From: Tribonema minus
Taxonomy: Eukaryota > Sar > Xanthophyceae > Tribonematales > Tribonemataceae
NCBI GenBank assembly: GCA_017506865.1
Contig: JAFCMP010000124.1
Location: 1,178,001-1,242,000, forward strand
Length of the DNA stretch: 64,000 nucleotides
Reading direction: 5' to 3'
Shown piece by piece: positions 45,830 through 52,037 of this stretch. Under the pieces are notes generated by a model. It was not told where the DNA came from, did no database searches, and was given only the letters and a program-made list of their open reading frames with translations. A program made the translations under genes and the position numbers. The first letter of the stretch is position 1. Every line of letters starts with the position of its first letter.

Positions 45830-46855
45830 ATGTGATCATGAGCATACCTGAGCTGTTGAGTACTAAAAGCTATGAGCATCTACACCGTCGCAGCGGTTGT
45901 TGCAAGTCGCTGACGGTGTCCCGCTCCTCTCAGCCAAGCGATCAGCGGTGATGCTGCCAGTACTTAGCAGAGACCTGAAGCACTACGTCTGCGTCCGCTA
46001 TGGGTCGAGTGCTTAAAGAATTGCTCACGAGCAACATGGTAAAAGCATAGTTTGTTGTCACAACTCGCATGATACATACTGTGTCAGTGCAAAGAGTTGA
46101 TTAAGTCGGCGCAGGTGTTAGAACATTCCGTGAGACTGAAGCCTCAATCGTAGAACCGGGTGCCGTAATAGGGCAGTCACATACACTATTCAGATGCAAT
46201 GAGGCCATGACCCCCGAGTCGGGGTCCACATGCTGCTGCCCCGGCTGTGGAGCGAGGACGACATCGGGACCGGACTACAGAACCAGGATGTGCACAGCTA
46301 CCCCTGAGGACTGTCCCCTCGTCGCTGCCTCTCAGAACGTTTTCGACAGGGACTGTGGCACTCGCTGGACTATCGTCATGAGGGGGGTGTTCGCTTGCTG
46401 CGACATCCACCACAGAGTCCCCGGGTTCTCTAGGGGGCGGGCAGCCGCCGAAGAGGAAGCCGACGATTCTGAGTAGGACTAGTGGTGGGAGTGACAGTTC
46501 ACAATTCCAAGTAAGTTTCTATGAATGGAATTTTAAGTAAGTTACACGACATGTGCAGCAGCTCACACTCACATTGTCATGTCAGCAATCATGTGTAATT
46601 GTCTTGTTACATGTCGCCTGCGAGCAAGTTCGTGCATTACGGGGGCTTCCCTCGGTGCGCGCCCGCCGCACACAGTCACTCGTCTTACCTTCTGTTGATC
46701 ACGTGCGTTTTCAGCTTCCCTGACGCAGCGGCAATGAGCACCATGATGCGCAATGAATCAAAATAATCAGCGAGGCAACAAGAAGGCACGAACAGTATGT
46801 TGACGACAGAAGAACTCGCTGTATATGACAAGGCCAGATATCACCCACTTTACTG
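45830..46855. other. Intergenic region between convergent genes
   Basis: This lies between the gene A stop (plus) and the beta-helix gene stop (minus). Frames of 75-89 codons on both strands near 46186-46476 overlap each other and have no start or splice support. No repeat is shared with the rest of the window. Confidence 0.4.
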
Positions 46856-46858
46856 TAA

Positions 46859-48153
46859 TCACGAAGTGGGGGCCGGCTCAACCTCTGGAGGGTGCAACGT
46901 ATCGCGCTTGCGAAGGCCTAACCAGGAATTTTGACGAATGGGGCCGGCAGTCGTCTTTACTTTGCGGTATACGAGGAACGCCTGAGTGAACGCTGCGACT
47001 AACAATATCACATTAAGCGCTATGAGCAGGTTGCCGATGGCGTTCTGGCTGTACTCGTCGACGTACTTGACCTGTATCAACAGCGAAGTGAACATACTCG
47101 CAGCGATAATGCTGTACCCCAGTCTGTAGAGTGACTCCTCTCCCCTCTCCTCGTGAGGTCGAACGGACTCATAGACCACACCGGCGAGCGAGGCGAAGAC
47201 GCACGCCACCGCGGTCTGTCCTGCCGTGCCGGGCATGATGAAGACAAGCAGGCCGGCGAGAAGCAGCCGCCGCAAGCACTCCGCGCACTCCCAGTAGGAG
47301 GTCTGAGGTGAGTACGGCTTGCGCAGGAAGGACGTCGCTGACGCCAACGCAGAGCGCTCGCGGACGTCGGCGGCGCCCAGCCTTATCATCCAGGCGAATA
47401 TCGCAGGGATGCCGAGCGGGTACACCAGCAACATGATCGCGGCATAGGTGACGTACGCCGTGTGTTCCGGCGTGCGGCACTGGATCGTGTAGTCCGCGCG
47501 CAGGTACCACGTGCCGTCGGGGCCGTCGTACTCGAGGTAGTCGCAGGCAAAGGTCTGGAAAATCGTCAGGGAGACGCCCGAGTAGACGAGGAAGGCGAAC
47601 ACCAGCAGAACGTGCAAGTCCTGCTCACACACGCGCTGCAGTTTGGCGCCGGCGGATCGCGGCCTGCACCGGCGGTACGCGCGCGGAGCGAGGATGACGC
47701 CGGCTATACCCAGCGGGACCAGCGTCGTCAGGAGCAGTCTCTGGTAGAAGCTGAGGTGCAGCACGCACCCGGGAGAAGTCAGCCACCGCAGGTCCAGCGA
47801 GATCAGGTCCATGACCTGCAGGAAGTCGAGGTACTGCAGCGGCAGGGCGACGCCGGTAATGCTGACGAACTGCGTCAGGATCTGCATCACGATGACGGGG
47901 GTCCGCAGGTGTCTCGCTATGATCAAGCATGCCCGCGCTAGCTTCAGCGTGCCGCTGGCGGCGGCGAAGGTGCTCGTGGCGTCGGCGCCTTCCCCCAGTC
48001 CCGATGCCGCTGCGACCAAGACCCAAAGCCCCAACGCCACGACGGCGAAGAGGACGACCATGCCGACGACGACGGCTCCTACGATGCCGGCCGTGCATTC
48101 CACGCACTTGTAGCCGGTCACCGCCGCGTAGCCGTCCGCGCACACGGCGCAGT
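46859..48153 (-). CDS. Membrane-spanning terminal exon of the Pmp-like gene
   Basis: The last exon (1295 nt) follows a pyrimidine-rich acceptor (TTCTTTCTCTTCGCTTCGCAG, about 48154-48174, read on minus). It starts in the Cys-rich stalk (CAVCADGY, YKCVEC), then has hydrophobic spans such as IVGAVVVGMVVLFAVVALGL, LLLTTLVPLGIAGVILA, VLLVFAFLVYSGVSLTIF, YAAIMLLVYPLGIPAIFAWM, LLLAGLLVFIMPG and IGNLLIALNVILLVAAF. An amphipathic YWECAECLRRLL stretch precedes the sixth, as in related algal multi-span C-termini. The tail is short and Pro/Glu-rich (HPPEVEPAPTS). Confidence 0.85.
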
Positions 48154-51100
48154 CTGCGAAGCGAAGAGAAAGAACGAATGAGGAACGGACCGCTGGCGGT
48201 TGCAACACCATTCAGCGCCACTCACATGGTCCCCGATATCCCGCAGCGCAGTACGCGTCCGAAGACCAGCCCAAGCTCCACACTCCAGCCTCCTGAGTCC
48301 AGACTCCGATTGACGTGGCGCCCGTGCCGCCCACACAAGCTTGGCGGTTCGGACACGCCCTGATGATACCGGGAATCATGGTGTCGTTCTCTCTCCAGTG
48401 ACCCGGCGAAAGCGGCAGGGTCGGTAGCGTCGCGCCGACGGCGGTGCAGTTCACCGTGTCAGCCGTGCACGCCACGCATGCGGGCCCGACCGCATCTGTC
48501 CCGCTGTACGTGCCGGTGCCGCAGCACGGCCTGCGTACAACAACGAGCATGTGAAATGTGCAGCGGCAGAAACTTAGCGCTCTCGAAACTTTGTGTCAAA
48601 AAATGTTGCAACATGAAACTCGACCACAAGCTTTTCCACATGATGACCGTCGCGGATTCGCTGTGGCAGATGCGCAAGAGGAAGATCATGACTGCATCAA
48701 TCTTTGCAGCGCTCTGCTCTGCATCTCTCAGTAGGCGAGGCTTTGAACACGTCCTCGACGCCGACGGGAGCAACTTCACCGCGCAGGCACTAGGCAGAGC
48801 GCGCGCCAAGCTACCGCAAGACCTGTTTCTCGAAATGAACAGGTCTATCCAAGCTAGACGTTTTGACGATTCTCCTCGTGTCTTTGCCATCGACGGGTCC
48901 AAAGTGCACATCCACCCATGTTATGCTGAATCGGGTTACAGGCGACAGTTGAATATCGTAGTACTCACCAGTTGGCATTGAATCCAGAATTCGCGTCCAA
49001 GCACGACGACCCGACGCCGGTATGGATCCCGCCGGCATAGCAACAGTGCGCACTGTTGCCCTCGAAATCCGAGTCGGCCACAGCGATGGTCAAGGTGTCA
49101 TAATCTCCGGCCTGAAGGATGGCGCCGCCCCCGCCGGCTAACGCAGAGTTGTGGGAGAAAACACACTGGCTCACGTTGAAATTATGAAGCTCCTGATGAA
49201 TAGCGATTGCGCCTCCGAGCGCAGCCGTGTTGCCGTCGAATGTGCAGTTCAAAAGCTGGCCAATCAATGTCCTAAATGGTACTCCAGCCATGGTCACGGT
49301 GACATATGAGGTCGATGAAGTCGTCGAGCTTCGGGAGGTACTTGAGGTTGTCACACTCGGCAACAAGCTGGAAGCGGAGCTTGATAATGATGTCGTTTGC
49401 GTCTTTGAGATCAGTAGGATACCACCACCATGTCCGGCTTGTGCACCTGCACAGCAACACCGCAATGACATCAATCATCGTGCGGCTGGCTCATGTGCGC
49501 TGTAATCACGCCGCAAACGTCTGGACATTACCTGCAGCATTGCCGATGAACTTTGAGTTTGTCACATTCAGGATGCCGATGATAATGGCGATCGCTGCGC
49601 CCCCTCCTGCAATCACAGCGCAACAGCGAGACAGGTCACGCTTGAAGAGCAGTACATACAGCGAATCTTGCGATACGCAGAGCAAAAGTTTGCACTCGGC
49701 GAAGGCGTTTCAGCTGTGAGTACACCTGGGACAGCGCTGACCTCCAGCACAAACGGCGGTGCACGCATGCAACACCAACCTGCTCTGTTGTTGATCAAAT
49801 CGGAGTCGGCCATCGTCAGCTTCCCTCCTTGGACATACAGCCCGCCTCCAGTCCGACCTGCAAAATACACAAGGACCGTCAATGTGGATTAGGCTCACCG
49901 TTTACATCCAAAAGCAATGAAGGCCACCGTCGTTGCATGAAAGTACGCACCAGAATGTGGTCGACTGCACCGATCTCACCTGCTTTGTTTCCCTCAACAG
50001 TCGAGTTCATCACAGATAGGTGTGAGAGAACACTTGCATAAATAGCTCCACCTTGTTGCCCTGCACAACAAGTACAGGGCATGAGTGCGATGTCAGATAT
50101 GACCGTGGCAGTGAGTGACTTCGAAACCAGCCACCAAAGCGCGTGATACGGAACACTTAGCGATCGGACAACGCAGAATGGCAGCTGCGATGACACCTGC
50201 ACTACGCACTCAGTGCTTGGAGAACGCAGATTGGCAGGAACCGGTGACGCGACATTGACTTACCTGCTACATTGTCGGTAAAAGTGGAGTTACTGAAGGA
50301 CATGTCGATATCAGCATACACGGCTCCTCCGAGAGCTGTATCGCAGGCAAAGCATGTTGTTCAGTTAGCACAAAAATGTGGGAAGCACATGCATAAATAT
50401 GGGCTCCTGCCAAACAGGGCGCAGTAGACGTCCGAGACCTCGAGTTGCGGTTGTCCAGCTGAGGCTGTAGTCGTATCCTCCGGTGAGGTAGCGACAACGG
50501 CAGAACGCAGCGCATGGCTCCAGCGCTCCCCATGCTGCCGCAATCTCCGTGCAAAACATCACCGGCTCGGATATTATGCAAAAGTAACATCAAGCACACG
50601 TTGTCAAGTAGATACGGAAGAAATGCGCAAAAAGTGAGAGAGCAATATTCATTACATGACGCCATGACATTGTACTCACTTGTTGCTCGATTACCAGAAA
50701 ACGTTGACGCTCGCACTATGGCCGTGCCCCTTCCTCCGATGTCGATGGCTCCACCAAAAGAAGCCGTGTTGGTCCTGAAAGTCGAATTCAGCAATATCGT
50801 ATTACCATGTTGGTGAGATATGGCACCCCCGTTACCATGTGAGCCATCAGCATAGTTGTCGATAAACGTCGACCCGCGCGCGACGACAACGCCGCCTGTA
50901 TTGGATATGGCGCCTCCATTGCTGGAACCGGTATTATTGGATAGGAGGCACGACTGTAGGGTCAGCCGTCCGTTGCTCTCAACGAGAACTGCCCCTCCTG
51001 ACGAGTAATTTCCATTCGTCAGGTGCATGCTGTCGAGCGTGACGTCGGCTCTAGCGGAGACGCGCATGAGTCGGTGGCCGCCTTCGCCTCTCATGACACT

Positions 51101-51352
51101 GGAAGGTGCGGCACCACTCATGCGCAGTGCGGTCCAACGACCCACAACAATCTGCTGCCGGATCGTCACGTCGCCTCGCCATGTCACGGTAATGTTCGCG
51201 TTGGCACAAGCTGCTGCAGTCGTCAAGGCAACAACGCTTTCGGGGCCGTCCACCACAAAGTATTGAAACGCCTTCTGACAGGTGTCCGAAACATCTCCGG
51301 CAGCCGCCGCCAGATAAACCACTATCAGCCATGCTATCACCCCACAGGCCAT
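46859..51352 (-). CDS. Pmp-like beta-helix protein with Cys-rich stalk and multi-span C-terminus (complete, 8 exons)
   Basis: The spliced CDS joins 51352-50680, 50335-50264, 50060-49980, 49857-49780, 49606-49532, 49446-48969, 48530-48226 and 48153-46859, 3057 nt or 1018 residues. Every junction is GT-AG with matching phase. The start is GCCATGG, then a signal peptide (MACGVIAWLIVVYLAAAAG). Residues 30-480 are right-handed beta-helix turns with GGA(I/V) and N-S-F-NxA motifs as in chlamydial-type polymorphic membrane protein repeats. Residues about 486-600 are Cys-rich (PCCGTGTYSG, CVACTAD, CAVCADGY, CVEC), like GCC2/GCC3 modules. About eight or nine membrane spans follow. It is probably a cell-surface adhesion or sensing protein; that is inference from family architecture. 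Exon 6 inserts a Ser/Thr-rich loop. The intron at 48531-48968 carries an antisense transposase fragment. Confidence 0.85.
48553..48959 (+). mobile_element. IS4-type DDE transposase fragment inside an intron
   Basis: A plus-strand frame encodes a helical region (FHMMTVADSLWQMRKRKIMT, SIFAALCSASLSRRGFEHVL, ALGRARAKLPQDLFLEMNRS) followed by RVFAIDGSKVHIHPCYAESG. The FAIDGSKV block is the strand bearing the first catalytic Asp of IS4/DDE_Tnp_1-like transposases known from eukaryotic genomes. The frame stops soon after, so the second Asp and the Glu are missing: only the N-terminal third is present. It occupies almost all of the 438-bp intron 48531-48968 of the minus-strand Pmp-like gene. No terminal inverted repeats were found. 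Confidence 0.65.
49532..50335 (-). repeat. Four single-coil beta-helix exons in phase 1
   Basis: Exons 50335-50264 (72 nt), 50060-49980 (81), 49857-49780 (78) and 49606-49532 (75) each encode one beta-helix turn: LGGAVYADIDMSFSNSTFTD, QGGAIYASVLSHLSVMNSTV, TGGGLYVQGGKLTMADSDLI and GGAAIAIIIGILNVTNSKF. All start by completing a Gly/Thr codon and end GCAG/GT, so each is a symmetrical 1-1 exon that can be gained or lost without frame damage. Introns are 85-344 nt. Confidence 0.85.
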
Positions 51353-51498
51353 GGCGCCTCGAGTACACGCTGCCCACCAATTCAGCGAGTGAAATTTCTG
51401 AAAGGTCCGCTAGGGTTAGGGTTCGCGAACGATGAAACCTACCGAAAGTGCGCGACGCAAGTGACACGCACGATAAGTACTTTGCAGGCAAATAACCA

Positions 51499-52037
51499 TC
51501 AGTGTACGCTCTGCGATGCGCGCCACGCATCGAACTCCTCAGGCGTTGGGGCCAGGCTCAGCAGCTCCTCAAGTTTTTCATGCACTTGCTGCGGGGAGAG
51601 CCTTCCCTGAAGCTGCCCGTACACGCTGTGAATCCCTTCCAGCTCGGCGACCGAGGGCGTATACTGGACACCCAGGGCGCCCAGCTGCGGCCACGACATG
51701 GTCTCGCGGCCGGGGCCGACGACCTGCATGCGCGCTAGGTCATACACTGTAGCGATGCGCTGCGTGATCTGCGCCTTGAAGTGGCGCTCGAGCGTATCCC
51801 GTTGGTCTCGTTGACCACGCTCACAATGTCGACGGGATTCTGGATACACTCGCCAATGACATCGTCCCAGTAACCGGATCCGCGCTGCCCCGCCACGTCG
51901 ACGAACTGGTTGCAGGACCTGTGGTCGTCGTCGGCCTCGTCGTACACTCTGAGCTGCGACCACGGGCACGCATGCCCGTCGGAGGGCTGCACGCTCTCCG
52001 CGCAGGCCTCCCGCGCCGCCGCTACTCTTGTGTACAT
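51499..52037 (-). pseudogene. Gene D: broken hypothetical protein
   Basis: From an ATG at 52037 the minus strand reads MYTRVAAAREACAESVQPSD, then an acidic/aromatic part (YDEADDDHRSCNQFVDVAG, GSGYWDDVIGECIQNP). Near 51797 the coding-like frame changes by one base, from VNETNG to RDTLERHFKAQITQ, and continues as LARMQVVGPGRETMSWPQLG and PQQVHEKLEELLSLAPTPEE to a stop at 51499. High third-position GC on both sides of the change argues that both halves are, or were, coding. The family is unknown. It lies 146 bp upstream of the Pmp-like gene on the same strand. A single-base assembly error would restore one protein of about 180 residues. Confidence 0.5.

Follow-up and report, generated by a model that had tools for sequence, protein, structure and literature searches.

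IS4-type DNA transposons that carry a Fanzor gene are already known from algal giant viruses and virus-derived DNA. The elements ESvi-1B and ESv-2 of Ectocarpus and EsV-1, in which an IS4-type transposase is found together with Fanzor1, have an 8-bp target duplication (Bao and Jurka 2013, PMC3627910), and the accessible part of that paper also gives the TnpB/Fanzor motif D-x(125,275)-[TS][TS]-x-x-C4-x(5,50)-RD. Endogenous giant viruses of Ectocarpus have likewise been described as carrying an IS4 transposon that includes a Fanzor gene and makes an 8-nt duplication; in the accessible sections of that report (PMC13236599), both EsV-1 and a Porterinema insertion are named as having similar transposons, and the Ectocarpus element is said to be restricted to the viral insertions, with none in the rest of the algal genome. 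In the available text of PMC11208158 Fanzor is named only in the reference list, the term 'IS4' is absent from the available text of PMC10711439 and PMC10432273, and a 2015 paper, in its accessible portion, places IS4EU among the superfamilies that it found in animals alone.

In the literature searched we found no report of an IS4-Fanzor element inside a host intron, a result that is not proof of absence. Transposon remnants of the ordinary kind occur in introns as truncated, antisense pieces between intact splice sites. Here we describe an intron of the alga Tribonema minus in which such a piece takes up nearly all of the sequence. The explanation that we favor for the whole, at a probability of roughly 90%, is the cut-and-paste insertion of an IS4-Fanzor element into an existing intron, followed by deletion.

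A Pmp-like gene with a transposon-filled intron

The window, that is, the whole stretch of 64,000 nucleotides that was analyzed, lies on contig C124 of a 158 Mb genome assembled in 554 contigs. The following features are relevant here.

46203..46527, plus strand: second piece of the same element type, comprising the last part of the Fanzor-like gene and the element 3' end, then GAATTTTA
46859..52036, minus strand: block of the Pmp-like gene shared with paralogs; last exon open over 432 codons, two exon frames further upstream with Chlam_PMP repeats
48531..48968, minus strand: intron of the Pmp-like gene, 438 nt, donor GTGAGT at 48968, acceptor CGCAG at 48531; splice positions common to six of the seven paralogs examined
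48531..48560, minus strand: acceptor-side remnant of the host intron, 30 nt, sense CACATTTCACATGCTCGTTGTTGTACGCAG; aligns with paralog introns
48553..48560, plus strand: putative 8-bp target site GAAATGTG; one copy left, unbroken in the C379 paralog intron
48561..48948, plus strand, antisense to the gene: 5' end of an IS4-type transposon, 388 nt, similar to the copy L020 on contig C379 and beginning at the element terminus CAGCGGCAG
48613..48948, plus strand: first 112 codons of the transposase, stop-free, reaching 17 residues past the first catalytic Asp; weak NCBIfam IS4_1 match
48949..48968, minus strand: donor-side remnant of the host intron, 20 nt, joint ambiguous by about 3 nt; aligns with paralog introns

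The Pmp-like gene carries Chlam_PMP repeats (PF02415) in two exon frames, with E-values of 7.2e-07 and 4.6e-05. Pairwise dN/dS of its last exon against seven paralogs ranges from 0.14 to 0.21 (for C279 over 327 of the 432 codons, with the frame broken in the alignment). From its open last exon and low dN/dS the gene looks maintained, these values not being proof of selection on the window copy itself.

On the minus strand the junctions of the intron read exon ...CCAACTG / GTGAGTACTACG ... TTGTACGCAG / GCCGTGCTGC exon. The exons joined across 48968/48531 form a single open frame, while read-through from the upstream exon into the intron meets an immediate TGA (by eye). Both splice sites and the 30 nt before the acceptor are retained, and the 438-nt intron should still be spliced out. 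The initial annotation had given this intron with the same coordinates and splice sites, and had found almost no other sequence than transposase between them. That description is accurate for the 388 of 438 nt (89%) that are transposon, at 48561-48948, and overlooks the 30 nt on the acceptor side and 20 nt on the donor side that are host-derived and can be aligned with paralog introns.

The plus-strand product of 48613-48948 reads MKLDHK...FAIDGSKV...GYRRQ. When it is aligned with a sister copy, the FAIDGS aspartate falls where the DDE domain match of that copy begins, in agreement with the earlier description of an N-terminal transposase piece running up to the first catalytic Asp. Only this one catalytic residue is retained, the piece ending before the Y-(2)-R-(3)-E-(6)-K signature. 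At the nucleotide level, 48561-48948 is 90.9% identical to the C379 copy L020 over 341 nt and 88.5% over a further 61 nt, the former value marking the match as more than chance. At the protein level the piece is 45% identical to the sister transposase L020:2491-3651. Profile searches with the 112-aa piece alone, a check that the initial annotation had itself proposed, were ambiguous: there was no transposase match in Pfam, a PHROGs search brought no gain, and the NCBIfam IS4 model NF033592 matched weakly (15.6 bits, E 0.0064). The identification of the fragment as IS4 rests on the longer genome copies.

It seems conceivable that the antisense piece has a function, for instance as a silencing template against related elements that is transcribed with every Pmp-like transcript, or that it is otherwise maintained. 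The start codon of the transposase is indeed covered in antisense, all 112 codons are open, and most changes relative to the C379 copy are synonymous (dN/dS 0.13). However, a low ratio may date from before the truncation, when selection acted on active elements, and the value fits divergence during such activity; most of the catalytic domain is missing, and three residues of the window piece, at positions 20, 26 and 69, are found in no other row compared. A functional piece is thus very improbable to us, and the insert is most likely a passenger that lacks function.

Structure of the element in sister copies

The C379 relative of the insert is 3736 bp long. Its transposase frame is interrupted by a single in-frame TAA, and a long Fanzor-like frame comes after it in the same orientation. 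Downstream of the TAA, the transposase matches PF01609 (E 2.1e-13) and is 47% identical to the neighboring uninterrupted sister transposase, L020:2491-3651, which matches the same family at E 1.8e-16 and the NCBIfam IS4 model NF033592 at 119.8 bits, above the cutoff of 115. An IS4-family DDE catalytic domain was found in both. The signature of the IS4 family is Y-(2)-R-(3)-E-(6)-K, and it is present as YALRWRVETSFRRLK and YKMRWKVETSFRRLK (by eye in the transposase alignment). The IS4-type identity proposed in the initial annotation is therefore confirmed by way of these sister copies and not by the fragment itself. Two copies on C379, L020 and L022, are 94% identical over 3.5 kb. Even so, the in-frame TAA of the transposase occupies one and the same position in both, and the 186-nt stretch compared there shows no difference.

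The ends of the element could be fixed by comparison with contig C279, which holds the same duplicated block as C379 without the 3736-bp element. The empty site in C279 reads GC-GAATTATG-TGAGTTC, and C379 reads GT-GAATTTTG-[3736 bp]-GAATTTTG-TGAGTTC. The ends are therefore CAGCGACAGAAACTT... and ...AAGTTTCTATAAATG, the 5' terminus being CAGCG, and the target duplication is 8 bp long. Short terminal inverted repeats, CAGCGACAGAAACTT and CATTTATAGAAACTT, accompany the duplication; they are imperfect, agreeing at 11 of 15 positions by eye. A third 5' end, in the near-identical loci L023, L024 and L025, starts CAGCGGCA after unrelated DNA. The initial annotation had suggested a search for full-length copies and their ends, and the 3736-bp C379 element is a relative with both ends fixed. 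The target sites assigned to element ends are listed below.

Window intron: GAAATGTG
C379: GAATTTTG
L024: GACCTGTT
Window 3' piece: GAATTTTA
L022: GATGCGTC
C509: GAAACCCC

All six of these distinct sites begin with GA, a regularity noticed after the fact; the count leaves out six weaker end-like rows (window 26617, 26687 and 61644; L021, L026 and L027), judged not to be at element ends, none of which has GA at the target edge. A word resembling a splice donor, GTRAG, occurs at most 16 nt past the 3' end of the element in three of four loci (L020, L022 and window 46528). This was also noticed afterwards, and the word is present in 2.2% of 16-mers in the window.

The frame downstream of the transposase in L022 encodes 816 aa, with D523, ST at 733 (a distance of 210), CPGC...C...C and RD at 774, an arrangement that agrees with the Fanzor1 motif D-x(125,275)-[TS][TS]-x-x-C4 zinc finger-x(5,50)-RD. 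A relative in L051 has the same motif (SSKYCPTKC...NRD) and reaches E 0.021 and 15.4 bits against PF07282, below the cutoff of 26.3. The L022 frame had no match to PF07282 and none in PHROGs or NCBIfam. Among PDB sequences L051 had no match, and the single L022 match was a chain named mL180, at E 0.71. Going by the published motif, we label the L022 protein Fanzor-like.

The second piece in the window, some 330 bp outside the Pmp-like gene on its 3' side, is of the same type: alignments from 46203 to the two C379 copies show 93.8% and 92.8% identity. We considered a single origin for 46203-46527 and 48561-48948 and did not find it supported. The order of the pieces is permuted and their outer flanks differ (GAATTTTA versus GAAATGTG), which makes two separate insertions the simpler account.

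The intron is older than its insert

A DNA search of the genome with positions 47600-49400 gave 40 matches. The paralogs examined are the seven with at least 900 bases of match to the long last exon, on C509, C468, C479, C279, C379, C59 and C290; shorter matches were left out. Six of the seven have an insert-free intron at the equivalent position, its donor GTGAGT and its acceptor CAG, and these introns are 79, 80, 81, 81, 81 and 85 nt long. The donor pattern used, TG/GTGAGT, is able to find that donor only, and a separate alignment shows the same donor independently. In the seventh paralog, on C290, the acceptor is kept and the donor pattern gave no match. The window intron accordingly has the conserved position and the splice signals of a spliceosomal intron of the Pmp-like family. 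The empty introns belong to paralogs and not to orthologs, and the genome search yielded no allele of the exact window locus with either a full element or an empty intron.

Because six of the seven paralogs hold the same intron without the insert, the insert did not create it. The intron is older, and the transposon lengthened it. The initial annotation had asked for a shorter form of the intron, and the 79-85 nt versions in the paralogs are such a form; it had also offered two origins, of which creation of the intron by the insertion is contradicted by them. An Introner-like event of this kind, bringing or recruiting splice sites, is suggested by the large share of transposon in the intron, and some DNA transposons do make introns (PMC9860276, in its accessible part). 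Here, however, not only do the insert-free introns speak against it, both splice sites also lie in host-derived sequence alignable with the paralogs, and we give this origin next to no credence.

The other proposed origin, a fragment that landed in a short intron, was right about the short pre-existing intron and probably wrong about the fragment. At the boundary 48560/48561 the C379 paralog reads GCATGTGAAATGTG followed by ACTTACG, and the window reads GCATGTGAAATGTG followed by CAGCGGCAG. Since the 5' end of the insert is the exact terminus of the element, it is most likely a real insertion that was cut short later. On its 3' side the insert breaks off inside the transposase gene, at 48948, with about 30 nt of intron missing relative to the C379 paralog and with CTG shared at the joint, the latter noticed after the fact. 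One element end and one target copy are left in the window intron; the second copy is gone, and the duplication is not visible at this locus.

The same arrangement could in principle result without any whole element having transposed, if repair of a double-strand break in the intron had taken up a 388-nt fragment in a single step. Capture would account for the breakpoint inside the transposase gene, the loss of about 30 nt of intron and the CTG common to the joint, and its product would look similar in every respect apart from the exact terminus. But it is this terminus, at the other end of the insert, that is rarely expected of a random fragment, and the 8-bp sequence adjoining it starts with GA like the other five assigned target sites. 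We therefore consider one-step capture unlikely.

According to the favored reading, insertion followed by deletion, a complete IS4-type DNA transposon with a Fanzor-like gene would have inserted by cut-and-paste, antisense, at the 8-bp target GAAATGTG within a spliceosomal intron, about 80 nt long, that one member of the duplicated Pmp-like family already had. A later deletion would then have removed the element from transposase codon 113 to its 3' end, and with it the other copy of the target and about 30 nt of the intron next to it. The CTG common to the deletion breakpoints is what microhomology-mediated joining would leave; this manner of joining, like the division into two steps, is one that we infer.

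The locus offers a clean before-and-after case of intron lengthening, in which the empty intron is supplied by paralogs and the element ends, target size and cargo by sister copies. It also cautions that an intron built almost wholly of transposon need not have been made by one.

Genomic surroundings and known systems

Homology between the window and the paralogs stops at 46856-46859, beside the stop codon, in six of the seven and at 46906 in C290, and its other limit is 52036 in C379 and C279 and earlier in the remaining paralogs. These sharp stops mean that the gene copy in the window lies in different surroundings from its relatives. The copy has been moved or re-flanked, with stops at 46856 and 52036, while several paralogs share flanks. 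The Pmp-like block was also considered as a mobile unit and rejected, several paralogs sharing further flanks with each other. Four of the eight Pmp-like loci (on C124, C379, C468 and C479) lie less than 50 kb from a contig end and are perhaps subtelomeric. On C379, C509 and C279 elements occur within about 15 kb of the Pmp-like gene, these three being one duplicated block and not independent cases.

Marker searches of the assembly gave 10 matches to the NCLDV major capsid protein (PF04451) and 8 to the late transcription factor Pox_VLTF3 (PF04947), with none of 14 control genomes matched. Both markers are above cutoff on C179, C90, C112, C21 and C223, from which we conclude that the assembly holds giant-virus sequence, integrated or free. 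Among the matches listed, 20 of 33 Fanzor matches have a transposase match 0-2.5 kb upstream of them in the same orientation; these 20 pairs are spread over 11 contigs, and some are broken copies. The pairs were drawn from 42 of 52 transposase and 33 of 88 Fanzor matches, additional fragments of loci already listed and 16 short C-terminal places having been set aside, and the counts are lower bounds. Eleven of the 20 listed pairs are on C179, C90, C112 and C21, and none of the 20 is on C223; a shared contig does not place an element inside viral DNA. The other nine are on C379, C59, C509, C514, C401, C279 and C335, and neither these contigs nor C124, which carries the window, had a match to PF04451 or PF04947.

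In a transposase tree of 14 rows, which is unrooted and covers part of the copies, the window piece and two C379 relatives stand next to copies from C112 and C21 (support 0.88). A second lineage at Pmp-like loci (C379, C279 and C509) stands apart from the window group. The two lineages at these loci thus group with, or between, lineages from marker-bearing contigs, in a tree that gives no direction of movement. Two scans of viral contigs with short peptide patterns (two patterns, then six), weak in scope, confirmed no viral relatives of the element. It may be that IS4-Fanzor elements have passed between giant-virus DNA integrated in the genome and ordinary host genes, the stub in the intron being one such crossing; we hold the chances of this to be even. 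The presence of transposons of giant-virus type in or beside genes with introns makes it testable, within one genome, whether mobile DNA moves between endogenous giant viruses and host genes.

Like ESvi-1B and ESv-2, the element has an IS4-type transposase followed by a motif-bearing protein, inverted ends and an 8-bp duplication. Those elements are described, in the accessible part of PMC3627910, as single-copy and virus-borne with 18-bp inverted repeats, whereas here the terminal repeats are imperfect and there are many copies, some of them in or beside intron-bearing genes. The element of PMC13236599, so far as its accessible sections describe it, shares the IS4 transposase, the 8-nt target duplication and the Fanzor gene; it differs in that here nine of the 20 listed pairs, and the window pieces, are on contigs with neither giant-virus marker family. 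As in Introners (PMC9860276, accessible part), DNA transposon sequence fills most of the intron. Introners are the nearest known alternative for such an intron, and they are excluded by the paralogs: the intron pre-dates its insert and the splice sites are host sequence, in contrast to an intron that an insertion creates.

Compared with ordinary transposon remnants in introns there is no difference in principle; the host intron was short, and the remnant now makes up 89% of it.
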